From contig NZ_QXTG01000002.1 in assembly GCF_003581425.1 (NCBI RefSeq), positions 124,001-188,000 on the forward strand: a stretch of DNA of 64,000 nt. Reading direction: 5' to 3'. Position numbers and translations under genes: made by a program. This document shows positions 1,765 through 46,451 of this stretch, one piece after another. This stretch comes from Amnibacterium setariae. GTDB lineage: Bacteria; Actinomycetota; Actinomycetes; Actinomycetales; Microbacteriaceae. A model generated the notes under the pieces. It saw only the letters and a list, made by a program, of their open reading frames with translations. It had not been told where the DNA came from and did no database searches. Position 1 is the stretch's first letter. Every line of letters begins with the position of its first letter.

Positions 1765-1817
1765 TCCGTTTTGAAGGAGATCCGGCGGTGCTCGCGCGAG
1801 AACTCCTTCAGAACGGA
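1765..1817. repeat. convergent-gap palindromic repeat, copy 1 (hybrid arms)
   Basis: Imperfect inverted repeat with arms TCCGTTTTGAAGGAG (1765-1779) and CTCCTTCAGAACGGA (1803-1817), separated by 23 nt. The left inner part (AGATCCGGC) matches copy 3, while the right inner part (GCGCGAGAACTCCTTC) matches copy 4. It lies between the stop codons of the convergent VOC and S4 genes, with only 8 nt left before the S4 stop. A bidirectional terminator role is plausible, although no U-tract follows either arm. Confidence 0.85.
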
Positions 1818-1825
1818 GTCCGCGG

Positions 1826-2188
1826 TCAGTAGCCGCGGAGGCGGGTGATGTCCCGGCGGTCCTTCTTCGTCGGGCGGCCCTTCGCGAGGTCGCGCAGCAC
1901 GGCCGCGGGCGTCTCCTCCTTCGGCGGGGGAGGCGGGGTGCGGTCCTCGACGGCGAGGGCGGCCTCGGGCGCGCCGCCGCGCTTCAGCGGCAACGCCTTG
2001 ACGCCGAGGATCTTCTCGTGCGCGAGCGTCGCCCGCACCTCGTCGCCGACCCGCACGACGTGCGACGGCTTCACCTTCGCGCCGTTGACCGCGACGTGAC
2101 CGGCCTTGCAGGCGGCGGTCGCGAGCGACCGCGTGCGGTACACCCGCACGGCCCAGAGCCACACGTCGATCCGCGCCGAGTCCGCCAT
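1826..2188 (-). CDS. hslR: S4-domain RNA-binding protein (Hsp15-like)
   Basis: A 120-residue protein with an N-terminal S4 RNA-binding fold: IDVWLWAVRVYRTRSLATAACKAGHVAVNGAKVKPSHVVRVGDEV covers residues 7-52. A basic tail ends in GRPTKKDRRDITRLRGY. This is the architecture of the Hsp15/HslR family, which in Escherichia coli binds stalled 50S subunits that still carry peptidyl-tRNA. The start at 2188 is supported by a TAGCGT box 7 nt upstream and by a GGAGGGG tract directly before the ATG. A longer frame upstream has no such support. The gene stands between the S9 peptidase gene (26 nt away) and the convergent VOC gene. Confidence 0.85.
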   Translation of the reverse strand: MADSARIDVWLWAVRVYRTRSLATAACKAGHVAVNGAKVKPSHVVRVGDEVRATLAHEKILGVKALPLKRGGAPEAALAVEDRTPPPPPKEETPAAVLRDLAKGRPTKKDRRDITRLRGY

Positions 2189-2195
2189 CCCCTCC

Positions 2196-2201
2196 ACGCT
2201 A
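2196..2201 (-). promoter_or_regulatory. -10 box (TAGCGT) of the S4 gene
   Basis: TAGCGT read on the minus strand, 7 nt before the ATG, predicts a leaderless or near-leaderless transcript. The intervening GGAGGGG could alternatively act as a ribosome binding site on a transcript starting further upstream. Confidence 0.5.
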
Positions 2202-2214
2202 ACCGCGACGGCGG

Positions 2215-4050
2215 TCACAGGTGCGCGGCGAGGAACCCCACGAGGTCGGTGAGGAGGCGCTTCCGCGAGCCGGCCCGGCGGTAGTCGTGCCCCTCGCCGG
2301 GCAGCTCGAGGTACTCGACCGGCCTGTCGAGGGCGTGCAGCGCCGCGACGATCCGCCGCGCCTCGCCAACGGGCACGTTCGTGTCGAGCTCGCCGTGCAC
2401 GACGAGCAGCGGCACGTCGATCGCCTCCGCCTGCCGGAGCGGCGAGATCGCCTCGAGCAGCGCGCGGTCGCGCTCGGGGTGGCCGTACTTCGTCACCGCG
2501 GCGGCGGCGATCCACGGCTCAGTCTCCTCGTAGAAGCGCGTGAGGTCGCTCATGCCGCACACGTCGACGCCCGCGGCGAAGACGCCGGGGGAGAAGGCGA
2601 GGGAGGCGAGCGTGAGGTACCCGCCGTAGGAGCGCCCGGTCACCCCGATGCGGCGGCGGTCCGCGACGCCCGTCGCGACGAGGTGGTGCGCTGCAGCGCG
2701 GACGTCGCCGAACGCGTCGAAGCGGCCGCCGAGGTCGTCGGCGTGCACGAACTCCCGGCCGAAGCCGGAGGAGCCGCGGACGTTGACGGCGAAGACGCTG
2801 ATCCCGGCGGCGGCGAGCGCCTGGTGCTGGGGGCTGAACGTCGGCCGCTCCTGCGCCTCCGGGCCGCCGTGGAGGTGCACGACGGCGCGGTCGGAGTCGG
2901 TCGCCCGGTAGAGCCAGCCGGTGAGGACGAGTCCGTCCTCGCCCCGGAAGGTCTCGAGGCTCGGCACGACGAGCCGCTCGGTCGGCGCGGGCGCCGCGGT
3001 CACCCGGGTCCAGCGCCGGCTGTGCGTGTCGAGGTGCCAGAGCTCGCGCGGCCGCTCCGGCCCCTCGACGCCGAGGATGACGGACCCGCCGTCGCGCGAC
3101 AGCACGGGCGTCGTCGCGACGAGGCCGGGGAGGCCCGTGATCGGCTGCCGCTCGTGCGTGCCCGTGTGGTACAGCTCGAGCTCGCTGCGGCCGGCGGCGT
3201 TCCAGACGAGCAGCAGCAGCGATCCCGCGTCGTCCGCGTCCACCGCCTCCAGCTCCGCGTCGTCGCGGAACGCGAGCGTCCTCGGCTCGCCGCGGTGCCC
3301 GTTCGGGCCGAACGGCAGCCCGATCAGCTGGCGGCGCGACAGCCCCACGTCGGAGGCGAGGTAGACGTACAGCGGGCCGGACTCGCCGTCGGGCGCGGGT
3401 CGCACGAGGGCGACGTCGGTCGAGCCGGTGCCGTGCGGCAGGAGCGGGAAGTGCTGGTCCTCGAGCCGGTCGACGACACTGCAGAACCGCGCGCCCCGCT
3501 CGCCGTCGATGAGGATCAGGAACCGCTCCTCGAGCGACACGTCGAGCACGTGGATGAGGTCGCCCTCCGCGAGCGGGTCGAGGCGGCCGGTCCACGGGTC
3601 GGCCAGGAACGACCGCGTCGGGCGGCCGGGGCCGGCGGAGGGATAGGTGACGACGACGCGGTGCCCGCTGCGCGTCCACGGCCCCAGCTCGGCGTGCTCC
3701 ACGTGGTCGCCCGCGATCCGCCGCGCCTCCGTGCCGTCCGGCCGGACGACCCAGACCTGGGTGCGGACGCCGCCGTCCGTCGCGACCGTGCAGGCCAGCC
3801 ACCGGCTGTCGGCGGACCACGACACGTCGATGACGGGGTCGGCCGAGACCGGGATGCGGCGGGCCGGTGGCGCGTCGCCCTCGAGCGCGACCTCCTGCAC
3901 CCAGACCTCCGGGCTGCCGGACCGGTCGCTGATGAAGGCGACGCGGCGCGCGTCGGGCGTCATGGTCGGCGACCAGCTGCCCCACGCGTCGACGAGCTCC
4001 GTGCCGAGCCGCACGGCGGCGTCGACGCGGTCGGCGGTGTCCGTGGTCAC
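2215..4050 (-). CDS. S9 family prolyl oligopeptidase / acylaminoacyl-peptidase-like
   Basis: A 611-residue serine peptidase or esterase with an N-terminal beta-propeller of PD40/WD-like blades (SWSPTMTPDARRVAFISD, VSWSADSRWLACTV and others, residues 20-370) and a C-terminal alpha/beta hydrolase domain. The nucleophile elbow is GRSYGGY (Ser about 474), with Asp in HGELDTNVPV and His in GEGHDYRR completing the triad. There is no signal peptide, so it should be cytoplasmic, acting on short peptides. GTG at 4050 is preferred because GGGAG lies 9 nt before it. GTG at 4056 is too close to that site. The next gene is 26 nt downstream. Confidence 0.85.
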   Translation of the reverse strand: MTTDTADRVDAAVRLGTELVDAWGSWSPTMTPDARRVAFISDRSGSPEVWVQEVALEGDAPPARRIPVSADPVIDVSWSADSRWLACTVATDGGVRTQVWVVRPDGTEARRIAGDHVEHAELGPWTRSGHRVVVTYPSAGPGRPTRSFLADPWTGRLDPLAEGDLIHVLDVSLEERFLILIDGERGARFCSVVDRLEDQHFPLLPHGTGSTDVALVRPAPDGESGPLYVYLASDVGLSRRQLIGLPFGPNGHRGEPRTLAFRDDAELEAVDADDAGSLLLLVWNAAGRSELELYHTGTHERQPITGLPGLVATTPVLSRDGGSVILGVEGPERPRELWHLDTHSRRWTRVTAAPAPTERLVVPSLETFRGEDGLVLTGWLYRATDSDRAVVHLHGGPEAQERPTFSPQHQALAAAGISVFAVNVRGSSGFGREFVHADDLGGRFDAFGDVRAAAHHLVATGVADRRRIGVTGRSYGGYLTLASLAFSPGVFAAGVDVCGMSDLTRFYEETEPWIAAAAVTKYGHPERDRALLEAISPLRQAEAIDVPLLVVHGELDTNVPVGEARRIVAALHALDRPVEYLELPGEGHDYRRAGSRKRLLTDLVGFLAAHL

Positions 4051-4087
4051 CCGCACAGTCTCCCGGGCCGTCGCCGCACGCCGCCAG

Positions 4088-5158
4088 TCAGGGCAGGAGC
4101 AGCTCCGCGTCGAGGTCGTCGAGCACGTCGAGGCCGACCGCCGCGACGGGCGTGTGCGCGCCGGGAGCGGCGCGCCCCTCCGCGATCCGCGCCGCGACCG
4201 CCGCCGCCGCGGCAGCCGTGAAGACGCCGGCGTCGCCCGTGCGCAGCCAGGCGGTGCGGACGGTGCCGTCGGACCACTCCGCGAGGGCGCGGCCCCAGGA
4301 GTGCGCGCGCGGGCGAGGGCGGTCGGGGAACCGCACCGCGGCCAGCCGAGCGGTCGCGAGCCGCTGGAGCGGCCGCAGGCGGAGCAGCGGTGCCGCGACG
4401 GGCAGGAGGGCGCGGAGGGTCCGACCGGTCGGGACGCCGGAGGAGGCCGCCAGCACCTCCGGTGCCCCGCTCGCGCGCCCGGCCGCGACGAGGTCGCCCG
4501 ACGGCCAGGCGCCGGTCGTGGCGGTTCCGCCGTCCGGGAGCGGCACCGCTGCGGGCCGTGATCCGACCCCGGCCCGGACGAGCCGTCCGGCCGTGATCCG
4601 GCGGCCGCCGAACGGCAGGGTCTCGACGATGGTCGCGGCGAGCGCCTCCCCGAGCGCGCCGGCCTCGAGCGCGACCGAGGCGACGGAGTCGACGCGGACC
4701 CGGACCGGAGCCGGCCGGCCGGCCAGCAGCGCGACGAGGGGCGCCTCCGTCGCGAGCACGCCGAAGCCGGCGCCGGTGACGAGGGTCCGCCCGGCGCGCA
4801 GGGCGTCGTCGTGGGCCGAGAGCAGCGCGGTCGCGGAGAGGAGGTCGTTCGCGACGTCGACGTACGAGGTCGACGGGAGCGCGGCGCGCCAGAGCGGTTC
4901 CGCCGTGCGGTGGAAGGGGCCGACCGTGTTGACCACGACCGAGGGGCCCGCCTCCCGGACCGCCGCCGCCATCGCGGTCGGGTCGGCCGCGACGACGGTG
5001 CGCGCCCCGTCGGGCAGTGCCTCGGCGGTCGCGGCGAGGCGCGTCGCGTCCCGCCCGACGAGCGCGACGGGCAGCCCGCGGTCGATCAGCGCTCGTGCGA
5101 CGTCGCGGCCCGTACGACCCGTCGCTCCCAGCACCCAGACCTCGCTCGTGGCGCTCAT
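4088..5158 (-). CDS. saccharopine dehydrogenase-like NAD(P)-binding protein
   Basis: A 356-residue protein whose N-terminus is a Rossmann fold (VWVLGATGRTGRDVARALIDRG, residues 7-28). A middle segment (VVNTVGPF followed by YVDVANDL) is typical of the saccharopine dehydrogenase/trans-acting enoyl reductase-like family. The substrate is unknown. The gene is divergent from a TetR regulator, and two matching operator palindromes lie between them, so its expression is probably controlled by that TetR. The ATG at 5158 overlaps the stop codon of a 16-codon ORF with a strong ribosome binding site, suggesting translational coupling. An in-frame N-terminal extension to 5221 is possible but would leave that site unused. 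Confidence 0.75.
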   Translation of the reverse strand: MSATSEVWVLGATGRTGRDVARALIDRGLPVALVGRDATRLAATAEALPDGARTVVAADPTAMAAAVREAGPSVVVNTVGPFHRTAEPLWRAALPSTSYVDVANDLLSATALLSAHDDALRAGRTLVTGAGFGVLATEAPLVALLAGRPAPVRVRVDSVASVALEAGALGEALAATIVETLPFGGRRITAGRLVRAGVGSRPAAVPLPDGGTATTGAWPSGDLVAAGRASGAPEVLAASSGVPTGRTLRALLPVAAPLLRLRPLQRLATARLAAVRFPDRPRPRAHSWGRALAEWSDGTVRTAWLRTGDAGVFTAAAAAAVAARIAEGRAAPGAHTPVAAVGLDVLDDLDAELLLP

Positions 5159-5205
5159 CCGGCCACCTCGCCGGTTCGATCGCTCCCGGTCCATTGCTCG
5201 CCCAT
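5155..5205 (-). CDS. 16-codon leader ORF coupled to the dehydrogenase
   Basis: Small ORF encoding MGEQWTGSDRTGEVAG. AGGAGG sits 6 nt before its ATG, the best ribosome binding site of this region. Its TGA overlaps the ATG of the dehydrogenase gene in an ATGA arrangement. It starts about 25 nt after the predicted transcription start inside the first TetR operator. It is either a coupling leader or an accident of an in-frame N-terminal extension. Confidence 0.4.
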   Translation of the reverse strand: MGEQWTGSDRTGEVAG

Positions 5206-5221
5206 CCGGCGCCTCCTTCAT

Positions 5222-5265
5222 GACACGACGTGTCATCACAATAGGGGGCGATGGCACTTCGTGTC
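5222..5265. promoter_or_regulatory. twin TetR operators in the divergent promoter region
   Basis: Perfect palindrome GACACGACGTGTC at 5222-5234 (TGACACGACGTGTCA with flanks). A related site, GGCACTTCGTGTC, lies at 5253-5265; its complement differs from the first at 2 of 13 positions. Their centres are 31 bp apart, about three helical turns. Site 1 covers the predicted start of dehydrogenase transcription and site 2 lies just upstream of the tetR -10 box, so one regulator could repress both genes. Confidence 0.7.
5238..5243 (-). promoter_or_regulatory. -10 box (TATTGT) of the dehydrogenase gene
   Basis: TATTGT on the minus strand, immediately upstream of operator 1. The predicted transcription start falls inside the operator, leaving a leader of about 25 nt before the 16-codon ORF. 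Confidence 0.45.
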
Positions 5266-5874: not shown

Positions 5875-5879
5875 CGCTT

Positions 5880-5979
5880 CGCGGATCCGGACTTTCCGAG
5901 CGACACGCCGTCGGGCGGGGCCGCACCATCGGCGTGTCGCGCGAATCCTCCGGATCCGCGACGGTTCTCCGGATCCGCG
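5880..5979. repeat. nested palindrome between convergent genes
   Basis: Outer arms CGCGGATCCGGA (5880-5891) and TCCGGATCCGCG (5949-5960) enclose inner arms GACACGCCG (5902-5910) and CGGCGTGTC (5930-5938). A second direct copy of TCCGGATCCGCG follows at 5968-5979, so the left arm can pair with either. It is unrelated in sequence to the TTTTGAAGGAG repeat family. A two-way terminator or alternative hairpin is plausible. Confidence 0.7.
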
Positions 5980-11179: not shown

Positions 11180-11782
11180 GTGCCGCATCACCCCTACCCG
11201 GACCTGAAGCCGCCGCAGCTCGTCCTCCTCCGACACGGGGAGACGGAGTGGAGCCGGACCGGCAAGCACACCTCCGTCACCGACGTCCCGCTGACCGAGG
11301 AGGGGGAGGCGAGGGCCCGCGCCCTCGCGCCCGTGCTGGCGCACCGCGACTTCCGGCTCGTGCTGTCGAGCCCGCGGCGGCGCGCCGTGCGCACCGCGGA
11401 GCTCGCCGGCTTCGGCGGGCGGATCGAGACGACCGAGGACCTGGCCGAGTTCGACTACGGCGACTACGAGGGGCGCACGTCGGCCGAGATCCACGAGGAC
11501 CGGCCCGGCTGGGACCTGTGGCGCGACGGCGCGCCCGGCGGCGAGACCGCCGCGGAGGTGCGCGTGCGGGTCGAGCGGGTGATCGCCCGCGCGCAGCCGA
11601 CCCTGGACGCCGGGCAGGACGTGCTGCTCGTCGCCCACGGGCACGTGCTCCGCGCCCTCGCCGCGGCCTGGATCGACCTGCCGCCGGAGGGCGGCGCGAA
11701 GCTCGTGCTGTCGACCGCCGGCATCGCCGAGCTCGGCCACGAGCACGACAACCGCGTCATCGACCTCTGGAACGCGGTGTGA
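11180..11782 (+). CDS. histidine phosphatase (phosphoglycerate mutase-like) family protein
   Basis: A 200-residue member of the branch 1 histidine phosphatase family. The phosphate-accepting His is in LLRHGETEW (His19), the partner Arg/His pair in LVLSSPRRRAVRTAEL, and the second catalytic His in LLVAHGHVLRAL. It is most likely a phosphatase acting on a small phosphate ester; mutase activity cannot be excluded. GTG at 11180 follows a TACGGT box by 7 nt. Its stop codon overlaps the GTG of the methyltransferase gene, so the two are translationally coupled. Confidence 0.85.
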   Translation: MPHHPYPDLKPPQLVLLRHGETEWSRTGKHTSVTDVPLTEEGEARARALAPVLAHRDFRLVLSSPRRRAVRTAELAGFGGRIETTEDLAEFDYGDYEGRTSAEIHEDRPGWDLWRDGAPGGETAAEVRVRVERVIARAQPTLDAGQDVLLVAHGHVLRALAAAWIDLPPEGGAKLVLSTAGIAELGHEHDNRVIDLWNAV

Positions 11783-12519
11783 GCGAGCGGGACGAGGCGC
11801 TCGCGGGCCGCCGCTTCGGCGCGGCCGCCCGCGACTACGTGGCAGGCCGGCCCGACTACCCGGCGGAGCTCGTCGCCTGGCTCGTGGGCGACGCCCGCGA
11901 GGTCGTCGACGTCGGCGCGGGCACCGGGAAGCTGACCGCCGCCCTCGTCGCCCCCGGCCGCGAGGTCGTCGCCGTCGAGCCGGACGCGGGCATGCTCGCG
12001 ACGCTCGCCGAGGAGGTGCCGGCCGCCCGCGCGCTCTCAGGCACCGGGGAGGCCCTGCCGCTGCCCGACGCCTCCGCCGACGCGGTCGTCTACGGCCAGG
12101 CGTGGCACTGGGTGGACGTGCCCCGGGCGTCCTCGGAGGCCGCGCGGGTGCTGCGGCCCGGCGGCGCGCTGGGCCTCGTCTGGAACGTGCGCGACACGGA
12201 CGTGGACTGGGTGCGGGAGCTCGGCGACGTGATCCGCGGCAGCGCCGCCGAGCGGATGATCGACGGCGACGCCGTCGTCGTCGACCCGCCGTTCGGCCCG
12301 CTCGAGCGGCGCGACCTGACCTGGACCCGCCCGATGACCGTCGACCAGCTCGTCGCGATGGCGGCGTCGCGGTCCTACGTCATCGCGCTGGCGCCGGAGG
12401 AGCGGGAGGGCGTGCTCGACGGCGTCCGCGACCTGCTCGGCACGCACCCCGAGACGGCCGGCCGCGACCGCATCGAGATGCCCTACGTGACGAGCGCCTT
12501 CCGCACCCTCCGCCCGTAG
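11779..12519 (+). CDS. class I SAM-dependent methyltransferase
   Basis: A 246-residue methyltransferase with SAM motif I EVVDVGAGTGKLTAAL (residues about 33-48), acidic motif II VAVEPDAGM, and a post-motif segment GEALPLPDASADAVVYGQAWHWVD as in the UbiE/Methyltransf_11 group. The substrate is unknown. The GTG start overlaps the preceding stop by 4 nt (GTGA), so it depends on the phosphatase gene for translation. No other pathway gene is adjacent. Confidence 0.85.
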   Translation: MSERDEALAGRRFGAAARDYVAGRPDYPAELVAWLVGDAREVVDVGAGTGKLTAALVAPGREVVAVEPDAGMLATLAEEVPAARALSGTGEALPLPDASADAVVYGQAWHWVDVPRASSEAARVLRPGGALGLVWNVRDTDVDWVRELGDVIRGSAAERMIDGDAVVVDPPFGPLERRDLTWTRPMTVDQLVAMAASRSYVIALAPEEREGVLDGVRDLLGTHPETAGRDRIEMPYVTSAFRTLRP

Positions 12520-12645: not shown

Positions 12646-12700
12646 TTCCGTTTTGAAGGAGTTCTCGTCCGCCTGCGCGAAGTACTCCTTCAAAACGGAA
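12646..12700. repeat. convergent-gap palindromic repeat, copy 2
   Basis: Perfect 17-bp inverted repeat, TTCCGTTTTGAAGGAGT (12646-12662) and ACTCCTTCAAAACGGAA (12684-12700), with a 21-nt centre. It lies between the convergent methyltransferase and SDR genes, 6 nt from the SDR stop codon. Confidence 0.9.
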
Positions 12701-12706
12701 TCAGGG

Positions 12707-13603
12707 TCAAGGGGTGGGGGTGCCGCCGTTCACCGCGAGGGTCGCGCCCACGACGAAGCTCGACTCGGGCGAGCTGAAGAAGACGTAGGCCGGCGCCATC
12801 TCCGCCGGCTGCGCGGCGCGGCCCAGCGGGGTGTCGGAGCCGTAGTCGGCGATCTCCTCCTTCGGGATGCCGCCGGAGACCTGCAGCGCGGTCCACGTCG
12901 GCCCGGGCGCGACGACGTTGACGCGGACGCCCTTCTCCGCGAGCTGCTGCGCCATGCCCTTCCCGAGGTTGTTGATCGCGGCCTTCGTGCTCGCGTAGTC
13001 GATGCGCTCCGGGGACGCCTGGTACGTCTCGAGCGAGGCGGTCAGCACGATGGTCGACCCCGGCGGCAGCAGCGGCACGGCCGCCTGCACGATGCGGAAC
13101 GCGGAGAACACGTTCACCTCGTAGGTCTCGACGAACTGCTCGTCGGGCAGCTCGGTCAGGTCGGTGGAGGTGATCTGCTTGCCCGCGACGATCGCGAGCG
13201 CGTCCAGCCCACCGAGCTCCCGGTTCGCGGTGGCGACGAGCTCGCGGCAGAACGCGGCGTCCGTCAGGTCGCCCGGGATGCTGACCCCGCGCCGGCCCGC
13301 GGCCCGGATCTGCTCGAGCACGTGGTCCGCGTCCGGCTGCTCCTGCGGCAGGTGGACGATCGCGACGTCCGCGCCCTCCCGCGCGAACGCGATCGCGGTC
13401 GCCCCGCCGATGCCGGAGTCGCCGCCGGTGACGAGCGCCTTCCGCCCGGTGAGCCGCCCCGTGCCGCGGTAGGTGGCCTCGCCCATGTCGGGCGTCGGCT
13501 TCATCTCGGACTGCAGGCCCGGCTCGTCCTGGATCTGGCGCTTCGGCGGATCGATCTTCGGGAAGCGGGTGCGGGGGTCGTCGAACGTCAGCTGATCGGT
13601 CAC
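12707..13603 (-). CDS. SDR family oxidoreductase (general-stress type)
   Basis: A 298-residue short-chain dehydrogenase. After about 50 residues of family-typical extension comes the nucleotide motif KALVTGGDSGIGGATAIAFAREGAD, then Ser in TASLETY and the catalytic YASTK. The extended N-terminus and the SLETYQASPERIDYASTK segment match the YhdF/YgcW-type SDRs often annotated as general stress or glucose dehydrogenase-like proteins. GTG at 13603 is chosen because GGGAGG lies 7 nt upstream. The substrate is unknown. Confidence 0.85.
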   Translation of the reverse strand: MTDQLTFDDPRTRFPKIDPPKRQIQDEPGLQSEMKPTPDMGEATYRGTGRLTGRKALVTGGDSGIGGATAIAFAREGADVAIVHLPQEQPDADHVLEQIRAAGRRGVSIPGDLTDAAFCRELVATANRELGGLDALAIVAGKQITSTDLTELPDEQFVETYEVNVFSAFRIVQAAVPLLPPGSTIVLTASLETYQASPERIDYASTKAAINNLGKGMAQQLAEKGVRVNVVAPGPTWTALQVSGGIPKEEIADYGSDTPLGRAAQPAEMAPAYVFFSSPESSFVVGATLAVNGGTPTP

Positions 13604-33882: not shown

Positions 33883-34425
33883 TTGACTGAGGTGAATCGG
33901 AGCGAAGACCGGTACGACCTCGGCTTGCTGTTCACGGACGGCATGCCGGAGTTGGACGACTCCGCCGGGTACCGCGGTGTCATCGCCGCGCGCGCGGCGG
34001 GGATCACGTACCGGCAGCTCGACTACTGGGCCCGGACCGGGCTCGTGGAGCCCACGATCCGTGGCGCGGCCGGCAGCGGCTCGCAACGGCTGTACGGGTT
34101 CCGCGACATCCTGGTGCTCAAGCTCGTCAAGAGGCTGCTGGACACCGGCATCTCGCTGCAGCAGATCCGCACGGCGGTCGAGCAGCTCCGTGATTGGGGG
34201 ATCACGGACCTCGCGCAGACCACGCTGATGTCGGACGGTGCCAGCGTGTACCTCTGCACCTCCAAGGAGGAGGTGTTCGACGTCCTCCAGCGCGGGCAGG
34301 GCGTCTTCGGCATCGCGGTCAGCAAGGTGCTGACCGACGTGCAGTCCGACCTCGTGCAGCTCGAGTCCGAGCAGGCCGACCCGACGGACGAGCTCGCCCT
34401 GCGCCGCGCCCAGCGCGCGGGCTAG
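33883..34425 (+). CDS. MerR family regulator (HspR/Rv1830-like)
   Basis: A 180-residue regulator with a MerR helix-turn-helix (GVIAARAAGITYRQLDYWARTGLVEPTIRGAAGSGSQRLYGFRDILVLKLVKRLLDTGISLQQIRTAVEQLR) followed by a short C-terminal domain (TLMSDGASVYLCTSKEEVFDVLQRGQGVFGIAV). Sequence pattern and position match Rv1830, the second MerR of the mycobacterial garA locus. The start is uncertain: TTG at 33883 has GAAGG 9 nt upstream, while GTG at 33892 has no spacing for a ribosome binding site. The DUF151 gene that separates the two merR genes in mycobacteria is not present. A strong terminator follows. Confidence 0.85.
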   Translation: MTEVNRSEDRYDLGLLFTDGMPELDDSAGYRGVIAARAAGITYRQLDYWARTGLVEPTIRGAAGSGSQRLYGFRDILVLKLVKRLLDTGISLQQIRTAVEQLRDWGITDLAQTTLMSDGASVYLCTSKEEVFDVLQRGQGVFGIAVSKVLTDVQSDLVQLESEQADPTDELALRRAQRAG

Positions 34426-34468: not shown

Positions 34469-34579
34469 GCGCGCCCGCGGGTCGGTTGGGGCTGCAGCGT
34501 CGGTCCGGGCGATCCCGACCCGGGGCGGTGGGCGCGCCGTCGGGATGGTCGGGTGACGTCGCGGACGAGATCAGCGCTG

Positions 34580-34650
34580 CGTTTTGCAGGAGATCCGGCC
34601 GAGCAGACCCGGGCCTCCGGACGACCCGCAGCCGGATCTCCTTCAAAACG
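34580..34650. repeat. convergent-gap palindromic repeat, copy 3
   Basis: Twenty-base arms, CGTTTTGCAGGAGATCCGGC (34580-34599) and GCCGGATCTCCTTCAAAACG (34631-34650), with one mismatch and a 31-nt centre. It lies in the 333-nt gap between the convergent merR and parA genes, which also contains a separate terminator on each side. Confidence 0.9.
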
Positions 34651-34758: not shown

Positions 34759-35595
34759 CTAGGCGAGCCGGCCGGCCGGCTGCTGCGTCGGGATCTCGGA
34801 GGTCGCGAACTCGCCGACCCGGCCGGTGCGCAGCACGCGCTCGAGCAGCTGGTCGAACATCCGCGCCAGCTCCTGAGCGCTCTCGCCGGGCCACACGTGG
34901 AGCGGCTTCGCGGCGCCCTGCGCCTGCTGCAGCGACGTGCGCTCGGGCAGCTGCGGCGAGAGCACGAGCGGCCCGAACATGTCGCGCAGCTCCTTGATGC
35001 GGAACTGGTGCTCGAGGCTCTGCATGCGGGCCCGGTTCACGATGATGCCGAGGGGCTGGAGGCGCGGGGACAGGCCGCGACGGATCTCCTCGATCGCCCG
35101 CAGGGCCCGGTCGGCCGCCGCGACGGAGAACAGCCCGGGCTCCGTGACGACCGAGACGCGGTCGGACGCGGCCCACGCGGTGCGGGTCAGGGCGTTCAGC
35201 GACGGGGCGCAGTCGACGAGCACGAGCTCGTACTCCGCCTCGACGTGCGCGAGCGCCTCCTCGAGCTTCCAGATGTCGCGCACCGACGGGTGCGGCCCGT
35301 CGAAGTTGATCGCCGCGGGCGAGCCGACCATCACGTCGACGACGCCGCCGCGGCCCCGCGTCCAGCCCGACGGCGTGATCGCCGCGCGGACCGTCTTCTC
35401 CTTGGGGCTGCCGAGCACGTCGGCGACGTTGACAGCGGCGACGGGCACGTCCATGCCCGTCGACACGTCCGCCTGCGGGTCCAGGTCGACGACGAGGGTC
35501 GAGACGCCGCGGGCGAACGCCGCGGACGCCAGCCCGAGCGTCACGGTGGTCTTGCCGACCCCGCCCTTCAGGGAGCTGACGCTCAGTACGTGCAC
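34759..35595 (-). CDS. ParA family ATPase (orphan)
   Basis: A 278-residue Walker-type ATPase with the deviant P-loop SLKGGVGKTTVTLGLASAAFARG (residues 8-30), switch I DLDPQADVSTG and switch II LVDCAPSLNALT. This is the ParA/Soj type that positions DNA or protein cargo. No parB gene or parS-like site is nearby, so it is not the chromosomal parABS locus as far as visible. GTG at 35595 follows a TAACCT box by 7 nt. It is divergent from pyruvate carboxylase. The C-terminus is extended and probably flexible. Confidence 0.87.
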   Translation of the reverse strand: MHVLSVSSLKGGVGKTTVTLGLASAAFARGVSTLVVDLDPQADVSTGMDVPVAAVNVADVLGSPKEKTVRAAITPSGWTRGRGGVVDVMVGSPAAINFDGPHPSVRDIWKLEEALAHVEAEYELVLVDCAPSLNALTRTAWAASDRVSVVTEPGLFSVAAADRALRAIEEIRRGLSPRLQPLGIIVNRARMQSLEHQFRIKELRDMFGPLVLSPQLPERTSLQQAQGAAKPLHVWPGESAQELARMFDQLLERVLRTGRVGEFATSEIPTQQPAGRLA

Positions 35596-35602
35596 GACCA
35601 GT

Positions 35603-35608
35603 AGGTTA
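35603..35608 (-). promoter_or_regulatory. -10 box (TAACCT) of parA, leaderless
   Basis: TAACCT on the minus strand, 7 nt before the GTG. Confidence 0.6.
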
Positions 35609-35665
35609 GCCGGGAAGGCCCCTCCGGCCGGGGGAGCGCCGCGCCACGACGAGGGAGTCGGTGCC

Positions 35666-38600
35666 GTGTTCTCGAAGATCCTGGTGGCCAACCGCGGCGA
35701 GATCGCCATCCGCGCCTTCCGCGCCGCCTACGAGCTGGGCGCGAGGACGGTCGCCGTCTTCCCGTACGAGGACCGCGAGTCCCTGCACCGGCAGAAGGCC
35801 GACGAGTCCTACCAGATCGGCGAGCCCGGCCACGCGGTGCGCGCCTACCTCGACGTGGGCGAGATCATCCGCGTCGCGAAGCTCTCCGGCGCGGACGCCG
35901 TCTATCCGGGCTACGGCTTCCTCTCCGAGAACCCGGAGCTCGCGGAGGCGTGCGCGGCGAACGGGATCGTGTTCATCGGCCCGCCCGCCTCGGTGCTGCG
36001 CAACGCCGGCAACAAGGTGACGGCGAAGGAGCAGGCGATCGCGGCCGGCGTGCCGGTGCTCGCCTCGTCGCCGCCGAGCCGCGACGTCGAGGAGCTGCTC
36101 GCCGCCGCGGACGGCATCGGGTTCCCGATCTTCGCGAAGGCCGTCGCGGGCGGCGGCGGCCGCGGGATGCGTCGCGTCGAGACCCGGGAGGCGCTGCGCC
36201 CCGCGCTCGAGGCCGCGATGCGGGAGGCGGACAGCGCCTTCGGCGACCCGACGATGTTCCTCGAGCAGGCGGTGCTGCGGCCCCGGCACATCGAGGTGCA
36301 GATCCTCGCGGACGGCGCGGGCACGACGCTGCACCTCTTCGAGCGCGACTGCTCGGTGCAGCGGCGGCACCAGAAGGTCGTCGAGATCGCGCCGGCGCCG
36401 AACCTCGACCGGTCGATCCGCGAGGCCCTGTACCGCGACGCGGTCGCGTTCGCCCGGTCGATCGACTACGTCAACGCCGGCACGGTCGAGTTCCTCCTCG
36501 ACACCGCGGGGGAGCGCGCCGGGCAGCACGTCTTCATCGAGATGAACCCGCGGATCCAGGTCGAGCACACGGTGACGGAGGAGATCACCGACGTCGACCT
36601 CGTCGCCTCCCAGATGCGCATCGCCGCCGGCGAGACCATGGCGGACCTCGGCCTCGCGCAGGACGCGCTGCAGATCCGCGGCGCCGCGCTGCAGTGCCGC
36701 ATCACGACGGAGGACCCGACGCAGGGCTTCCGGCCGGACACCGGCCGGATCACCACGTACCGCTCGCCGGGCGGCGCGGGCGTGCGGCTCGACGGCGGCA
36801 CGATCAACCCGGGCGCGCAGATCAGCCCGCACTTCGACTCGATGCTCGCGAAGCTCACGTGCCGCGGGCGCGACTTCGCGGCGGCGGTCGCGCGGGAGAA
36901 GCGCGCCCTGGCGGAGTTCCGGATCCGCGGCGTCGCGACGAACATCCCCTTCCTGCAGGCGGTGCTGGACGACCCCGCCTTCCTCGCCGGCGACCTCTCG
37001 ACCGGGTTCATCGAGGAGCGGCCCGAGCTCGTGCGGCACCGGCCGAGCCGGGACCGGGCGACGAGGCTGCTGAACTGGCTCGCCGACGTGACGGTCAACC
37101 AGCCGAACGGCCCTATGCCCGCCGGCCCGCGTCCCGCCGACAAGCTGCCGCACCTCGACCTGCAGGCGCCGCCGCCCGCCGGGTCGAAGCAGCGTCTCGA
37201 CGCCCTCGGTCCCGCCGGCTGGGCACGCGCGCTCCGCGAGCAGACCGCCCTCGCCGTCACCGAGACGACGTTCCGCGACGCGCACCAGTCCCTCCTCGCC
37301 ACCCGGGTGCGGACCCGCGACCTGCTCGCCGTCGCGCCCGCCGTCGCCCGGCTCACGCCCGAGCTGCTCACCGTCGAGGCGTGGGGCGGCGCGACCTACG
37401 ACGTCGCGCTCCGCTTCCTCGGCGAGGACCCGTGGGAACGGCTCGAGCGCCTCCGCGTCGCGATGCCGAACGTCGCGATCCAGATGCTGCTCCGCGGCCG
37501 GAACACGGTCGGGTACACGCCGTACCCGACGGAGGTCACGGACGCGTTCGTCGCCGAGGCGGCGGCGACCGGCGTCGACGTGTTCCGCATCTTCGACGCG
37601 CTGAACGACGTCGAGCAGATCCGGCCCGCGGTCGACGCCGTGCTCGCGACCGGCACCGCGGTCGCGGAGACCGCCGTCTGCTACACCGCGGACCTGCTCG
37701 ACCCGGCGGAGACGCTCTACACGCTCGACTACTACGTCCGGCTCGCCGAGCGCATGGTCGAGGCGGGCGCGCACGTGCTCGCGATCAAGGACATGGCCGG
37801 CCTGCTCCGGCCGCGCGCGGCAGCCAGGCTGGTGGAGGCGTTCCGGCGGGAGTTCGACCTGCCCGTGCACGTGCACACCCACGACACGGCGGGCGGGCAG
37901 CTCGCGACGCTGCTCGCCGCGAGCGACGCCGGCGCGGACGCGGTCGACGTCGCGGCCGCCCCGATGGCGGGCACGACGAGCCAGCCCTCGTTCTCGGCGC
38001 TCGTCGCCGCGCTCGCGCACACGGAGCGCGACACCGGGATCTCCCTCCCGGCCGTCTCCGACCTCGAGCCGTACTGGGAGGCGGTCCGTGGGCTGTACCG
38101 GCCGTTCGAGTCCGGCCTGCCCGGGCCCACCGGCCGCGTGTACCGGCACGAGATCCCCGGCGGCCAGCTGTCGAACCTGCGGCAGCAGGCGATCGCCCTC
38201 GGCCTCGCCGACCGCTTCGAGCGGGTCGAGGAGCTGTACGCGGCGAGCAACGAGATCCTCGGCCGCATCCCCAAGGTCACGCCGTCGTCGAAGGTGGTCG
38301 GCGACCTCGCGCTGCAGCTCGCCGCGGCGGACGCCGACCCGCACGACTTCGCCGAGCACCCCGAGCGGTACGACATCCCCGACTCCGTCGTCGGCTTCAT
38401 GGCCGGCGAGCTCGGCGACCTGCCGGGCGGCTGGCCGGAGCCGTTCCGCACGAAGGTGCTCGCGGGCCGGGACGTGCGCATCGGCGTGACACCGGTGCCG
38501 GACGCCGACCGGGCCGCGCTCGGCACCGCGGGCCCGACCCGCCGCGCGACCCTGAACCGCCTCCTGTTCCCCGGCCCGACGAAGCAGTTCGGCGAGCTGC

Positions 38601-39067
38601 ACGACCTCTTCGGCGATCTGTCCGTGGTCGACACGGCCGACTACCTGTACGGGCTGCGGCCGGGCGCGGAGCACGTGGTCGCGATCGACCGCGGCGTCGA
38701 GCTCTTCATCGGCCTCGAGGCGATCGGCGAGCCCGACGACAAGGGCGTGCGGACCGTCATGACGACGCTGAACGGGCAGCTGCGCCCCGTCTACGTGCGG
38801 GACCGGTCGATCGCCGTGACGACCGCGGCCGCCGAGAAGGCGGACCCGAACCGCGCCGGTCAGGTCGCCGCCCCGTTCGCCGGGGTGGTCACCCTGAAGG
38901 TCGAGCAGGGCGACCGGGTCGAGGCCGGGGCGACCGTCGCGACGATCGAGGCGATGAAGATGGAGGCGTCGATCACCACCCCGGTGGCCGGCGTCGTCGC
39001 CCGCGTCGCGGTGTCGCGCACCGCGCAGGTCGAGGCCCAGGACCTGCTCCTCGTCGTCGACGAGTAG
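35666..39067 (+). CDS. pyc: pyruvate carboxylase
   Basis: A 1133-residue biotin enzyme converting pyruvate and bicarbonate to oxaloacetate for anaplerosis. The biotin carboxylase domain spans residues 1-450 (SKILVANRGEIAIRAFRAAYELG; KAVAGGGGRGMRRV; FIEMNPRIQVEHTVTEEIT). The carboxyltransferase domain spans about 520-830 (TTFRDAHQSLLATRVRTRDLL; HTHDTAGGQLATLLAA). The biotin carrier domain carries Lys1098 in EAMKMEAS. Length is usual for the single-chain form. GTG at 35666 is preferred, with GAGGGAG 8 nt upstream. A terminator hairpin follows the stop. Confidence 0.95.
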   Translation: MFSKILVANRGEIAIRAFRAAYELGARTVAVFPYEDRESLHRQKADESYQIGEPGHAVRAYLDVGEIIRVAKLSGADAVYPGYGFLSENPELAEACAANGIVFIGPPASVLRNAGNKVTAKEQAIAAGVPVLASSPPSRDVEELLAAADGIGFPIFAKAVAGGGGRGMRRVETREALRPALEAAMREADSAFGDPTMFLEQAVLRPRHIEVQILADGAGTTLHLFERDCSVQRRHQKVVEIAPAPNLDRSIREALYRDAVAFARSIDYVNAGTVEFLLDTAGERAGQHVFIEMNPRIQVEHTVTEEITDVDLVASQMRIAAGETMADLGLAQDALQIRGAALQCRITTEDPTQGFRPDTGRITTYRSPGGAGVRLDGGTINPGAQISPHFDSMLAKLTCRGRDFAAAVAREKRALAEFRIRGVATNIPFLQAVLDDPAFLAGDLSTGFIEERPELVRHRPSRDRATRLLNWLADVTVNQPNGPMPAGPRPADKLPHLDLQAPPPAGSKQRLDALGPAGWARALREQTALAVTETTFRDAHQSLLATRVRTRDLLAVAPAVARLTPELLTVEAWGGATYDVALRFLGEDPWERLERLRVAMPNVAIQMLLRGRNTVGYTPYPTEVTDAFVAEAAATGVDVFRIFDALNDVEQIRPAVDAVLATGTAVAETAVCYTADLLDPAETLYTLDYYVRLAERMVEAGAHVLAIKDMAGLLRPRAAARLVEAFRREFDLPVHVHTHDTAGGQLATLLAASDAGADAVDVAAAPMAGTTSQPSFSALVAALAHTERDTGISLPAVSDLEPYWEAVRGLYRPFESGLPGPTGRVYRHEIPGGQLSNLRQQAIALGLADRFERVEELYAASNEILGRIPKVTPSSKVVGDLALQLAAADADPHDFAEHPERYDIPDSVVGFMAGELGDLPGGWPEPFRTKVLAGRDVRIGVTPVPDADRAALGTAGPTRRATLNRLLFPGPTKQFGELHDLFGDLSVVDTADYLYGLRPGAEHVVAIDRGVELFIGLEAIGEPDDKGVRTVMTTLNGQLRPVYVRDRSIAVTTAAAEKADPNRAGQVAAPFAGVVTLKVEQGDRVEAGATVATIEAMKMEASITTPVAGVVARVAVSRTAQVEAQDLLLVVDE

Positions 39068-43137: not shown

Positions 43138-43211
43138 TCGAAGCTCCTTCGCCCGGGGTGGTCGGATCGATGGTATCCGGCGTCGCACCGGGGAGCGGGC
43201 CGACCGGGCGG

Positions 43212-43253
43212 CGTCACGCCCTAGGCTCTGCTCGTCACGCCCTAGGCTCTGCT
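43212..43253 (+). repeat. exact 21-bp tandem duplication of the ROK promoter
   Basis: Two adjacent identical 21-bp units (43212-43232 and 43233-43253), each containing CGCCCTAGGCTCTGCT. Each unit carries the -10 box TAGGCT, at 43222-43227 and 43243-43248, so the gene may have two promoters one unit apart. Confidence 0.9.
43243..43248 (+). promoter_or_regulatory. -10 box (TAGGCT) of the ROK gene, leaderless
   Basis: The downstream copy of TAGGCT lies 8 nt before the GTG. The upstream copy would give a 21-nt longer transcript. Confidence 0.55.
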
Positions 43254-43256
43254 GCC

Positions 43257-44228
43257 GTGCAGGCGATCGGCATCGACATCGGCGGGACCAAGATCGCCGG
43301 AGGCGTCGTCGACGAGCTCGGGACGATCGAGCGGTTCGAGCGCGTGCCGACGGACGCGTCCGACGCGACCGCCATCGAGGACGCGATCGTCGCGATGATC
43401 GAGCAGCTCGCCGAGGGCCGCCGGCTGCCGGTGGGCGTCGCGGCGCCGGGGTTCATCGACGCGGGCCAGAGCACCGTCTACTACACGCCGAACATCCCCT
43501 GGCGGAACGAGCCCCTGCGCGAGCGGCTCGAGTCGCGGCTCGACCTGCCGGTCGTCGTCGACAACGATGCGAACGCCGCGGGCTGGGCGGAGTTCCGCTT
43601 CGGCGCCGGGCGCCTCGTGTCCGACATGGTGATGCTGACCTCCGGCACGGGCGTGGGCGGCGCGGTGATCGCGGGCGACCGGCTGCTCCGCGGCGGGTTC
43701 GGCGTCGCCGGCGAGCTCGGCCACATGCGGGTCGTCCCGGACGGCATCCCGTGCGGGTGCGGCGCGCGCGGCTGCATCGAGCAGTACGGCTCCGGCCGGG
43801 CCCTGCAGCGCATGGCGAACGCGGTCGCCGACGGCGGCGGCATCGGCAGCGCCCTCGCCGCCGAGCGCGAGCGGGCGGGCGGCGTGCTCGAGGGCGCGGT
43901 CATCGGCCGGCTCGTGCAGGAGGAGGACCCGGGCGCCCTCGCCGCGATCGGCGAGCTCGGCTCCTGGCTCGGCCAGGCCTGCTCGAGCCTCGCGGTCGTG
44001 CTCGACCCGCAGCTCTTCGTGATCGGCGGCGGCGTCGCGGACGCGGGGGAGCGGCTGCTCGGCCCGGTGCGGCGCGCCTACGAGGAGCACCTCCCGGCCC
44101 GCGGCTTCCACCCGGAGCCGGTGTTCGCGGTCGCGGAGCTCGGGAACGAGGCCGGCGTCGTCGGCGCCGCGGACCTCGCGCGCCTGCACGAGGACCCCAC
44201 CTTCCTCGCCTACGCCCCCCGCGGCTGA
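43257..44228 (+). CDS. glk: ROK family sugar kinase (glucokinase)
   Basis: A 323-residue ROK kinase. The ATP-binding DIGGTK motif is at the N-terminus (QAIGIDIGGTKIAGGVVDE), the sugar-binding GELGHMRV region follows, and the zinc and ROK signature is PCGCGARGCIEQYGSG. Glucokinase is the usual function for single ROK proteins of this length in actinobacteria; another hexose or N-acetylmannosamine is possible. Reading frame upstream of 43257 is open only because the promoter duplication is 21 bp. It is followed by a hairpin and the plsC gene. Confidence 0.87.
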   Translation: MQAIGIDIGGTKIAGGVVDELGTIERFERVPTDASDATAIEDAIVAMIEQLAEGRRLPVGVAAPGFIDAGQSTVYYTPNIPWRNEPLRERLESRLDLPVVVDNDANAAGWAEFRFGAGRLVSDMVMLTSGTGVGGAVIAGDRLLRGGFGVAGELGHMRVVPDGIPCGCGARGCIEQYGSGRALQRMANAVADGGGIGSALAAERERAGGVLEGAVIGRLVQEEDPGALAAIGELGSWLGQACSSLAVVLDPQLFVIGGGVADAGERLLGPVRRAYEEHLPARGFHPEPVFAVAELGNEAGVVGAADLARLHEDPTFLAYAPRG

Positions 44229-44231
44229 CGG

Positions 44232-44250
44232 CGGCGGGCGGCCCCCGCCG
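44232..44250 (+). terminator. short GC hairpin between glk and plsC
   Basis: CGGCGGG (44232-44238) and CCCGCCG (44244-44250), 3 nt after the stop codon. Confidence 0.4.
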
Positions 44251-44256
44251 AACCGG

Positions 44257-44262
44257 TAGCCT
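44257..44262 (+). promoter_or_regulatory. -10 box (TAGCCT) of the plsC-aroG pair
   Basis: TAGCCT about 35 nt before the plsC ATG, which has its own GGAAGGGG ribosome binding site. Confidence 0.45.
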
Positions 44263-44296
44263 CGACGGACCTGCCGGAGAGTGGAAGGGGTCGCGG

Positions 44297-44986
44297 ATGC
44301 TCTACTGGGTCCTCAAGGTGCTGTTCCTGGGCCCGTATCTGCGCTCCACGTTCCGGCCCTGGGTCTCCGGCATGGAGAACCTGCCCGCCACGGGCCCGGT
44401 CATCCTCGCCTCGAACCACGTCTCGGTCGTCGACTCGCTGTTCCTGCCGCTGATGCTGAAGCGCCGGGTGACGTTCCTCGCGAAGAGCGACTACTTCACG
44501 GGCAAGGGCCTCAAGGGCTTCGTGCTCCGCACCTTCATGAACGGCATCGGCCAGCTGTCGATCGACCGGTCCGGCGGCAAGGCCAGCGAGGCGTCGCTCG
44601 ACACCGGCGTGCAGGTGCTGCGGAGCGGCGGCGTGCTCGGGATCTACCCCGAGGGCACCCGCAGCCCCACCGGCAAGCTCTACCGCGGACGGACCGGCGT
44701 CGCCCGCATGGTCCTGGAGGCGAAGGCCGCCGTGGTGCCCGTCGCGATGTTCGACACGGACAAGGCGATGCCGATCGGCACGGTCATCCCGAAGGTGCGG
44801 CGCGTCGGCATCGTCATCGGGGAGCCGCTCGACTTCTCCCGCTTCGAGGGGATGGAGGGCGACCGCTTCGTCCTCCGGTCGATCACCGACGAGATCATGG
44901 TCGAGATCGCGAAGCTCTCCGGCCAGGAGTACGTGGACGTCTACGCGAGCACCCTCCGGCAGGCCGCTGCCGCGAAGGCCGCGTGA
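44297..44986 (+). CDS. plsC: 1-acyl-sn-glycerol-3-phosphate acyltransferase
   Basis: A 229-residue membrane-associated acyltransferase making phosphatidic acid. The catalytic HX4D is in SNHVSVVDSLF, the glycerol phosphate motif is GIYPEGTRSPTG, and a hydrophobic N-terminus (MLYWVLKVLFLGPYLR) anchors it. It corresponds in position to Rv2182c near aroG and pknL in Mycobacterium tuberculosis. Its stop overlaps the GTG of aroG. Confidence 0.9.
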   Translation: MLYWVLKVLFLGPYLRSTFRPWVSGMENLPATGPVILASNHVSVVDSLFLPLMLKRRVTFLAKSDYFTGKGLKGFVLRTFMNGIGQLSIDRSGGKASEASLDTGVQVLRSGGVLGIYPEGTRSPTGKLYRGRTGVARMVLEAKAAVVPVAMFDTDKAMPIGTVIPKVRRVGIVIGEPLDFSRFEGMEGDRFVLRSITDEIMVEIAKLSGQEYVDVYASTLRQAAAAKAA

Positions 44987-46383
44987 GCCCGAGGAAGTCG
45001 ATGCTGCAACCGCTCACCGAGCCCGTCGTCCCCGCGCGCCCCGAGGTGCTGGCCGGGCTCGACCACTGGCGCACGCTCGAGGTCCGGCAGCAGCCGGAGT
45101 GGTCCGACACCGCCGCGGCCGAGGCCGCCGTCGCCGAGCTGCGCTCCATGCCGCCGCTCGTCTTCGCGGGCGAGATCGACCAGCTGCGCACCCGCCTCGC
45201 GACCGCCGCCGCCGGCCGCGCCTTCGTGCTGCAGGGCGGCGACTGCGCCGAGACGTTCGAGGGCGCGACCGCCGACCGGATCCGCGCACGGGTGCGCACG
45301 ATCCTGCAGATGGCCGTCGTGCTCACGTACGGCGCGTCCATGCCCGTCGTGAAGATGGGGCGGATGGCGGGGCAGTTCGCCAAGCCCCGCTCGAGCGACA
45401 GCGAGACGCGTGACGGCACGACGCTGCCCGCCTACCGCGGCGACGTCGTTAACGGGTACGACTTCACGCCGGAGTCGCGGCGGCACGACCCCGCCCGGAT
45501 GGTGCGCGGCTACCACACGGCCGTCTCGACGCTGAACCTCGTCCGCGCGTTCACGCAGGGCGGGTTCGCGGACCTCCGCGAGGTGCACAGCTGGAACCGC
45601 GGCTTCGCGGCGAACCCCGCGAACCAGCGCTACGAGGGCCTCGCGAAGGAGATCGACCGCGCGGTGAAGTTCATGGAGGCGGCGGGCGCCGACTTCGAGG
45701 AGCTGAAGCGGGTCGAGTTCTACACCGCGCACGAGGCGCTGCTGATGGAGTACGAGCGCGCCCTGACGCGGATCGACTCCCGGAACGGCACCCCGGTCGA
45801 CACCTCCGCCCACTTCGTTTGGGTGGGGGAGCGGACCCGGCAGCTGGACGGCGCGCACCTCGACTTCGTGTCGCGGATCCGCAACCCGATCGGCGTGAAG
45901 GTCGGCCCGACGATGACCGGCGACGAGCTCGAGCGGCTCATCGACCTCGTCGACCCCGACCGGGAGCCCGGACGCCTCACCCTGATCACGCGGATGGGCG
46001 CCGGCCGCATCCGCGACGCCCTCCCGCCCCTGCTCGAGGCCGTCAAGGAGTTCGGCGCGACGCCGCTGTGGATCACCGACCCGATGCACGGCAACGGCAT
46101 CACGACGCCGACCGGCTACAAGACCCGCCGGTTCGACGACGTGGTCGACGAGGTGCTCGGCTTCTTCGCCGCGCACCGCGAGGTCGGCACGCACCCGGGC
46201 GGCCTGCACGTCGAGCTGACCGGCGACGACGTCACCGAGTGCCTCGGCGGGTCGGAGCACATCGACGAGGCGACGCTCGCGACGCGCTACGAGTCGCTGT
46301 GCGACCCGCGGCTGAACCACATGCAGTCGCTCGAGCTCGCGTTCCTCGTCGCCGAGGAGCTCGGGGCGCACGCCCGCTCCTAG
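44983..46383 (+). CDS. aroG: class II 3-deoxy-D-arabino-heptulosonate 7-phosphate synthase
   Basis: A 466-residue class II DAHP synthase catalysing the first step of aromatic amino acid synthesis from erythrose 4-phosphate and phosphoenolpyruvate. Diagnostic segments are FVLQGGDCAETF (metal Cys), NPANQRYEGLA, RIRNPIGVKVGPTM, LWITDPMHGNG and GGLHVELTGDDVTECLGGS, with the C-terminal DPRLNHMQSLELAFL. GTG at 44983 overlaps the plsC stop, while ATG at 45001 has GAGGAAG just upstream and is an equally good start. It is syntenic with Rv2178c. It ends at palindromic repeat copy 4. Confidence 0.93.
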   Translation: MSPRKSMLQPLTEPVVPARPEVLAGLDHWRTLEVRQQPEWSDTAAAEAAVAELRSMPPLVFAGEIDQLRTRLATAAAGRAFVLQGGDCAETFEGATADRIRARVRTILQMAVVLTYGASMPVVKMGRMAGQFAKPRSSDSETRDGTTLPAYRGDVVNGYDFTPESRRHDPARMVRGYHTAVSTLNLVRAFTQGGFADLREVHSWNRGFAANPANQRYEGLAKEIDRAVKFMEAAGADFEELKRVEFYTAHEALLMEYERALTRIDSRNGTPVDTSAHFVWVGERTRQLDGAHLDFVSRIRNPIGVKVGPTMTGDELERLIDLVDPDREPGRLTLITRMGAGRIRDALPPLLEAVKEFGATPLWITDPMHGNGITTPTGYKTRRFDDVVDEVLGFFAAHREVGTHPGGLHVELTGDDVTECLGGSEHIDEATLATRYESLCDPRLNHMQSLELAFLVAEELGAHARS

Positions 46384-46396
46384 CGCCCTCCACCCC

Positions 46397-46451
46397 TTCC
46401 GTTCTGAAGGAGTTCTCGGCGCTCGCGCGCGAGAACTCCTTCAGAACGGAA
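46397..46451. repeat. convergent-gap palindromic repeat, copy 4
   Basis: Perfect 22-bp inverted repeat: left arm 46397-46418, right arm 46430-46451, beginning TTCCGTTCTGAAGGAGTTCT. The centre is 11 nt. It is the longest copy in the window. It lies between the convergent aroG and protein kinase genes, 13 nt from each stop codon. Confidence 0.92.

Follow-up and report, generated by a model that had tools for sequence, protein, structure and literature searches.

Why should one palindrome recur four times in a 64-kb stretch of a bacterial genome, each time between two genes that run towards each other? The stretch (hereafter the window) is C2:124001-188000 of Amnibacterium setariae, whose 3.48-Mb genome lies in five contigs. 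A preliminary description made from its letters alone had picked out four palindromes with shared arms, which we call family A. Following the family through the source genome and into related species, we find that it marks gene 3′ ends, that sister species carry palindrome families of their own, and that the same gene ends hold different stems, or none, from one species to the next. We think it somewhat probable that family A consists of palindromes like repetitive extragenic palindromic (REP) elements, kept at transcription-unit ends as mRNA 3′-end hairpins lacking a U-tract and copied by a route independent of a REP-associated tyrosine transposase (RAYT).

Family A in the window and in the genome

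All four palindromes lie where they had been reported (Table 1). Seven of their eight arms are exact, and the eighth, at 34579, has two mismatches. It belongs to copy 3, the most diverged in the window, in which one arm reads GCAGGAG and the model span is 79 nt. The arms of copy 4 are perfect over 22 bp. With three or fewer mismatches allowed, a 14-mer matches the window 15 times against 5.87 expected, a count that none of 100 shuffles reached.

A covariance model built from 22 family A copies was run over the whole genome. It returned 110 matches, corresponding to 55 palindromes each read on both strands. With four of these in its 64 kb, the window is enriched. The palindromes combine conserved arms (TTCCGTTYTGAAGGAGTTC) with a GC-rich centre. 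The centres had been described as differing in length, from 11 to 31 nt, and this does not hold in general, as 52 of the 55 copies share a single span of exactly 57 nt. The three others are left out below wherever positions, pairing, energy or flanks are counted. The consensus of the 52 copies is ATTCCGTTTTGAAGGAGTTCTCGCGCGGTCCGCGCGAGAACTCCTTCAAAACGGAAT.

Palindromes lie at gene 3′ ends

Genes were called with our own codon-usage script, which made at least one miscall and also supplied the background gap counts. The script first placed copy 3 between codirectional genes, having missed the minus-strand open reading frame (ORF) 34759-35709. This ORF is ParA-like (Pfam AAA_31, E 2.8e-25) with a positive coding score. 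We therefore treat it as a genuine gene and the gap holding copy 3 as convergent, as first described, and the orientation counts were corrected. With that gap included, the window has seven convergent gaps longer than 45 nt and four of them carry the element, exactly as claimed.

Genome-wide, 28 copies are convergent, 26 codirectional and one divergent, and none of the 55 is reported within a called gene. The proposed restriction to convergent genes thus describes the window (4/4) but not the genome. Nor are copies scattered without regard to orientation, even with 26 of 55 codirectional. Against 76 convergent, 242 codirectional and 77 divergent background gene pairs (404 kb, made up of 17 grid stretches and the window), convergent gaps are enriched about 2.6-fold and divergent gaps are nearly empty (p 3e-9).

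Distance to the stop codon gives a sharper rule. The copy starts within 15 nt of a facing stop codon in 47 of 55 cases, compared with 6.6% of 30,930 random placements in the grid gaps. One of the remaining eight starts 24 nt from a facing stop, and seven lie further off or have no facing stop. Six of these seven were re-examined for overlooked genes without any change; the seventh is copy 3. Between codirectional genes the copy mostly sits close against the upstream stop, with free space before the downstream start. Together, this placement and the proximity to stop codons indicate that the rule concerns the gene 3′ end rather than convergence itself.

Conserved arms and a covarying centre

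The left-arm GAAGGA is invariant in all 52 copies, its mirror TCCTTC deviates in one, and the G that follows on the left deviates in two. Substitutions in the centre are nearly saturated, yet it remains 83% G+C and its paired positions covary. Watson-Crick pairs form at 209 of 312 centre pairs, compared with a permuted mean of 167.6 (sd 9.3) and a maximum of 207 in 2000 permutations. Shifting the partners by one to three positions leaves at most 152. Mean RNA folding energy of the 52 copies is -39.2 kcal/mol, a raw value taken without a shuffle control.

Genome-wide, the arm has 130 matches with up to three mismatches, against nine for a reversed control. All 85 arms with no or one mismatch fall inside the 55 palindromes, leaving no single arms at that stringency. 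This bears on whether family A could be a DNA-uptake signal that doubles as a terminator, as in Neisseria and Haemophilus. Such a signal would fit a repeated arm in 3′-end stems and the dialects that separate species. The lack of single arms speaks against it, as does a copy number far below that of uptake signals, ~1000 or more according to PMC1852404, and we regard this explanation as highly improbable.

Sister species carry families of their own

Is family A shared by relatives? A strict core (YTGAAGGAG, 5-34 nt, CTCCTTCAR) was found in five of 398 Microbacteriaceae genomes, with 42 palindromes in the source genome, four in G125 and one each in A. kyonggiense (G097), G159 and G008. The covariance model matched eight of 60 genomes, the source genome included. 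Outside it, strand matches fell chiefly in G159 (50), A. kyonggiense (17), G004 (16) and G292 (9). A strict-core scan of a named GTDB collection, which may omit the source genome itself, gave 14 stretches, among them A. kyonggiense (L042) and Microbacterium oxydans (L036). Eleven of the 14 are scattered over unrelated phyla, and these we take to be chance.

G159 holds a GAAGGGG version, family C, with the shifted consensus TGCGTTTTGAAGGGGTTTCTG and 25 + 23 arms. Elsewhere in the genus its motif gives only 4 + 4 three-mismatch matches in the source genome, which are family A arms. Family C arms also lie within ~55 bases of the starts of five G159 contigs (C51, C26, C62, C101 and C92), as if the palindromes break assembly.

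A. kyonggiense has an unrelated sequence, family B (TTCACGGATACGGAGATCC), with 54 + 58 matches at three or fewer mismatches and 38 palindromes with an exact core. The family B motif has 2 to 21 matches in each of the six remaining genus genomes (17 in the source genome), mostly of a different motif, GCGGATCCGGAGATCC; one true B-like pair exists in the source genome, at C1:1498504-1498549. Matches of the GCGGATCCGGAGATCC type are paired ~84 nt apart in the source genome and G159, suggesting a second, larger palindrome family. Family B follows the position rule seen for family A. Of 17 loci taken 16 were readable, and 14 of these 16 palindromes lie within 15 nt of a facing stop, in six convergent, ten codirectional and no divergent gaps. 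Stretches of 33-43 nt that take in the centre are identical between several dispersed family B copies, which points to copying.

Recurrent gene-end stems are also present in two other genera, in 200-kb samples that were not fully blind, some stretches having been picked for a known match. G004 has four copies of GCGAGACTCCAG...CTGGAGTCTCGC, and G125 has three copies of CACCGTCGAGT... and two, plus two diverged, of a ACTGAAGGAGATTCG-like stem. A further intergenic motif, GGTCGAGGTGCGAGC / CTCGAGACC-like, recurs at several gene ends in the source genome (L276, L270, L274) and in A. kyonggiense (L137).

The preliminary description had also noted a ribosome-binding-site-like sequence hidden in the stem. 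Families B and C lack it, having ACGGAG or GAAGGGG in place of GAAGGAG, and the idea is rejected on that ground.

Unrelated stems at orthologous gene ends

We then compared the same gene ends between species. We looked for the orthologous ends of 41 copies among the 55 (drawn from the 47 near a stop, with a flanking gene of at least 180 aa), or of 21 of these in G016, and kept 39 sites in A. kyonggiense, 34 in G159 and 16 in G016. A neighbour was counted as matching when tblastn found it past the stop codon, in one case 1,013 nt off, and two dehydrogenase sites may be paralogues. Family labels were assigned by regular expression.

Among 32 A. kyonggiense ends with a matching neighbour, three hold family A, five family B, 12 other stems and 12 none. 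A stem is therefore present at 20 of 32, and 17 of those 20 are not family A. G159 has 20 such ends (one A, one C, six other, 12 none) and G016 has eight (five other stems, three none). Where the neighbour does not match, the counts are seven for A. kyonggiense (one B, two other, four none), 14 for G159 (two C, four other, eight none, one cut by a contig end) and eight for G016 (two other, six none).

Control ends put through the same test carry a stem less often, at 5/31 in A. kyonggiense loci (a small control, unmatched for gap length), 4/30 in G159 and 50/339 in the source-genome grid. The excess at orthologous ends is significant in A. kyonggiense (p 0.00025) and G159 (p 0.04). By orientation, stems are present at 12/18 convergent and 8/14 codirectional A. 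kyonggiense ends, compared with 34/132 and 16/207 in the source-genome grid. In the reciprocal test, 13 family B ends were followed into the source genome, where two hold family A, four hold other stems and seven have no clear stem (6/13 vs 50/339, p 0.009). Without the two A sites, which are also in the forward set, this falls to 4/11 (p 0.07).

Individual sites illustrate these differences. Families A, B and C each occupy C1:261055, between DnaJ and MerR-family genes, in a different one of three species, and no stem is present there in G016. The stems at C1:281110 differ between the source genome and A. kyonggiense, and the 20 bases after them, which close with ATG, are identical. Stems are lacking in A. 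kyonggiense and G159 at C2:199967 and at C2:27701, which separates acyl-CoA dehydrogenase from thiolase; the gaps there are short but otherwise correspond, and G016 has another stem.

Could such stems have arisen in place? On this account, template switching at quasi-palindromes together with selection for a stem would build each one locally, and shared arms would reflect convergence rather than copying. Stem positions do persist while sequences differ across species, and family A centres are nearly saturated but still covary. A local origin sits poorly with 19-nt arms common to 55 copies, with dispersed family B copies alike over their whole 33-43 nt, and with sites absent where the flanks otherwise correspond. 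We consider it very unlikely.

Spread without a detected transposase partner

The preliminary description had suggested a REP-like or mobile element and a search for a RAYT/TnpA-like transposase. No Y1_Tnp (RAYT-type) gene was found in any of the seven genus genomes, and five of 14 control genomes were positive. Family A thus resembles REPs in form, being short, palindromic, extragenic and present in dozens of dispersed, lineage-specific copies, but has no RAYT partner that we could find. Mobility itself finds support in the shared centres of dispersed family B copies and in empty sites with otherwise corresponding flanks.

No target duplication signal was found in 52 family A copies, nor any flank complementarity prolonging the stem. 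Family B flanks do prolong the stem (score of at least 5) in five of 17 copies, against a permuted mean of 0.8, a hint of insertion into older dyads. One site, C1:117335, holds a copy shared with G159; between the two genomes, 2 of its 38 arm positions and 9 of its 15 centre positions differ.

These data can be set against a neutral non-autonomous mobile element, that is, a miniature inverted-repeat transposable element (MITE) whose terminal inverted repeats are the arms and whose bias to gene ends comes from loss elsewhere or from targeting. Dispersed copies, shared family B centres, sites empty in sister species and the fixed length of family A would all be expected of it. A neutral element fits less well with 47 of 55 copies lying within 15 nt of a stop, and the inverted arms come with no target duplication signal. 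Near-exact arms (0-1 mismatch) occur only inside the palindromes, with no larger element bearing these ends seen at that stringency, though a parent element may have more diverged ends or may have been lost, and the copy shared with G159 looks as if its arms were kept after insertion. This explanation is unlikely, in our judgment, though it deserves serious consideration.

Proposed hairpins at mRNA 3′ ends

That family A acts on RNA, as our preferred reading of 3′-end hairpins holds, is suggested by where it lies, by how stable it is and by stems that persist at orthologous ends. Once transcribed, the palindrome would fold into a very stable stem a few bases past the stop codon. Such a stem would most likely define and shield the mRNA 3′ end and keep closely packed genes insulated from one another. 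It could do so as a terminator lacking a U-tract, like those proposed in mycobacteria, or else by blocking the exonucleases that trim Rho-terminated RNA. Copies would multiply within each genome without a RAYT, and insertions would persist at gene ends, where they may be useful or harmless; one family might then displace another.

A canonical intrinsic terminator is not supported, given that no U-tract follows the stem. The copies do show the stable stem just past the stop that marks I-shaped terminators (47/55 within 15 nt, at the mean energy given above). A terminator without a U-tract, as raised in the preliminary description, is a candidate reading that position and stems at orthologous ends favour; the lack of strand-biased wobble pairs argues against a purely RNA-level constraint. 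Termination by stems without a U-tract is itself reportedly disputed, in work by Czyz of 2014.

Several observations weigh against 3′-end hairpins as the explanation. The 8 nt following family A copies hold ~1.1 T (45 copies, plus strand only), and a scan for U-tract terminators in two 20-kb stretches holding the four window copies flagged none of the four. No U-tract follows 37 other long stems either (1.2 T in the following 8 nt), a set that includes two diverged window family A copies and may count stems in convergent gaps from both sides. Orthologous ends lack any stem at 12/32 sites in A. kyonggiense and 12/20 in G159. In the source-genome grid, 34 of 78 convergent ends with gaps of at least 25 nt already have a stem, so part of the enrichment reflects these sites being transcription-unit ends. 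Several copies lie within likely operons (between the DnaJ and MerR genes, and between those for acyl-CoA dehydrogenase and thiolase), and complete termination there would have polar effects. These two contexts, with their short distance to the next start, point to termination that is only partial, or to protection of RNA. In codirectional copies, G-U pairs on the transcribed strand are no commoner than A-C (15 vs 19, p 0.61), which argues against a constraint confined to a single RNA strand. Lastly, the arms are more conserved in sequence than pairing requires.

The last two points, with the 57-nt span of 52 of 55 copies, would suit a site read in DNA, where a sequence-specific protein binds arms at fixed spacing and serves to organise or insulate the chromosome where genes end. 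Such a protein would not account for sister species with unrelated arms at the same gene ends, for families B and C being spaced otherwise, or for covariation between centre pairs. A DNA-level site accordingly seems to us quite unlikely.

A bolder proposal can also be made, which we offer tentatively as a possibility. Gene 3′ ends in the genus would be recurrent landing sites, where RAYT-less copying puts hairpins at or into existing 3′-end hairpins. Terminators would thereby turn over through mobility, and the same mRNAs would close with unrelated repeat families in sister species. Were this true, 3′-end signals in high-GC actinobacteria would be replaceable repeats re-supplied by each lineage rather than fixed parts of genes. 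It would help to explain gene ends without U-tracts, and one arm per species would offer a handle for 3′-end mapping. It also raises the question of how short palindromes are copied to stop codons if no RAYT is involved.

Other features of the window

Two of the three remaining convergent gaps in the window hold long stems unrelated to family A (Table 1). The inverted repeat at 5879-5961 (TCGCGGATCCGGACTTTCCGAGCGACACGCCG ...) occupies its whole convergent gap. The stem at 52441-52511 (CGGCAGGCTGCGAGCACTTCGGCAGGC ...) is a third kind and likewise occupies a convergent gap; a similar stem, GGCAGGC/GCCTGCCGAAGTGC, is present at an orthologous gene end in A. kyonggiense (L220). The ParA-like gene 34759-35709 (-) overlaps the beginning of a biotin-dependent carboxylase ORF, 35144-39067 (+), which is extended too far upstream. 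The first Pfam domain of that ORF begins only at residue 176, and its start belongs further downstream.

An Rfam scan of the window matched no family. In eight loci from relatives the same kind of scan found only a ZMP/ZTP riboswitch, away from the element. This riboswitch (RF01750; L138 1492-1569, minus strand, A. kyonggiense) lies near, not at, the site orthologous to C1:579661.

Table 1. Palindromes and other long stems in the window, with window positions and flanking genes
Feature	Position	Context
Family A copy 1	1765..1817	Between Glyoxalase-like gene (1390-1749 +) and S4-domain gene (1826-2218 -)
Family A copy 2	12646..12700	Between methyltransferase gene (11779-12519 +) and short-chain dehydrogenase gene (12707-13603 -)
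Family A copy 3	34580..34650	Between MerR gene (33892-34425 +) and ParA-like gene (stop at 34759, -)
Family A copy 4	46397..46451	Between class-II DAHP synthetase gene (45001-46383 +) and Pkinase/PASTA gene (46465-48027 -)
Long inverted repeat, sequence unrelated to family A	5879..5961	Convergent gap
Long inverted repeat, sequence unrelated to family A	52441..52511	Convergent gap

Comparison with known systems

A literature search found no paper on such repeats in Microbacteriaceae or on replacement of families at orthologous ends, although absence from a search is not proof. Family A is like REPs and bacterial interspersed mosaic elements (BIMEs) in that short extragenic palindromes are dispersed in dozens, often 3′ of genes and specific to a lineage. 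It is unlike those with a RAYT in that its host genus has no Y1_Tnp gene in seven genomes. The RNIE work of Gardner and colleagues in 2011 is said to have described TRIT, a repeated terminator-like motif of Mycobacterium tuberculosis. The likeness is that TRIT, too, is reportedly an actinobacterial 3′-end hairpin in repeated copies. A TRIT model is named in PMC3526491.

In mycobacteria, I-shaped terminators without poly-U lie within 50 bp of stop codons and Rho is dominant, according to the cited passages of a review (PMC12288462). Family A shares the stable stem near the stop codon without poly-U, but those terminators are defined by structure, unlike the dozens of family A copies with one arm sequence. 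Uptake-signal terminators of Neisseria and Pasteurellaceae (PMC1852404, in part) likewise have a repeated arm sequence in 3′-end hairpins. Family A differs from them in having no single arms and far fewer copies.

The closest parallel comes from species-specific spaced palindromes near gene 3′ ends that were found by motif statistics (PMC5217627). Examples in the passages cited are GAATCCAT(N)23ATGGATTC in B. japonicum and GCTTAT(N)5AAGCG in A. ebreus, the latter with 44 convergent, 59 co-oriented and 4 divergent copies. Like family A, these palindromes are dispersed in dozens, mostly intergenic, near gene ends and enriched between convergent genes. They come from other taxa and have other sequences, and the same passages contain no comparison of orthologous sites between species. 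With species-specific 3′-end palindromes, stem-loop families (PMC2267715, in part), REPs in many bacteria (PMC12306157, in part) and uptake-signal terminators all in print, the class to which family A belongs is already known. What stands out is the replacement of one family by another at orthologous gene ends.

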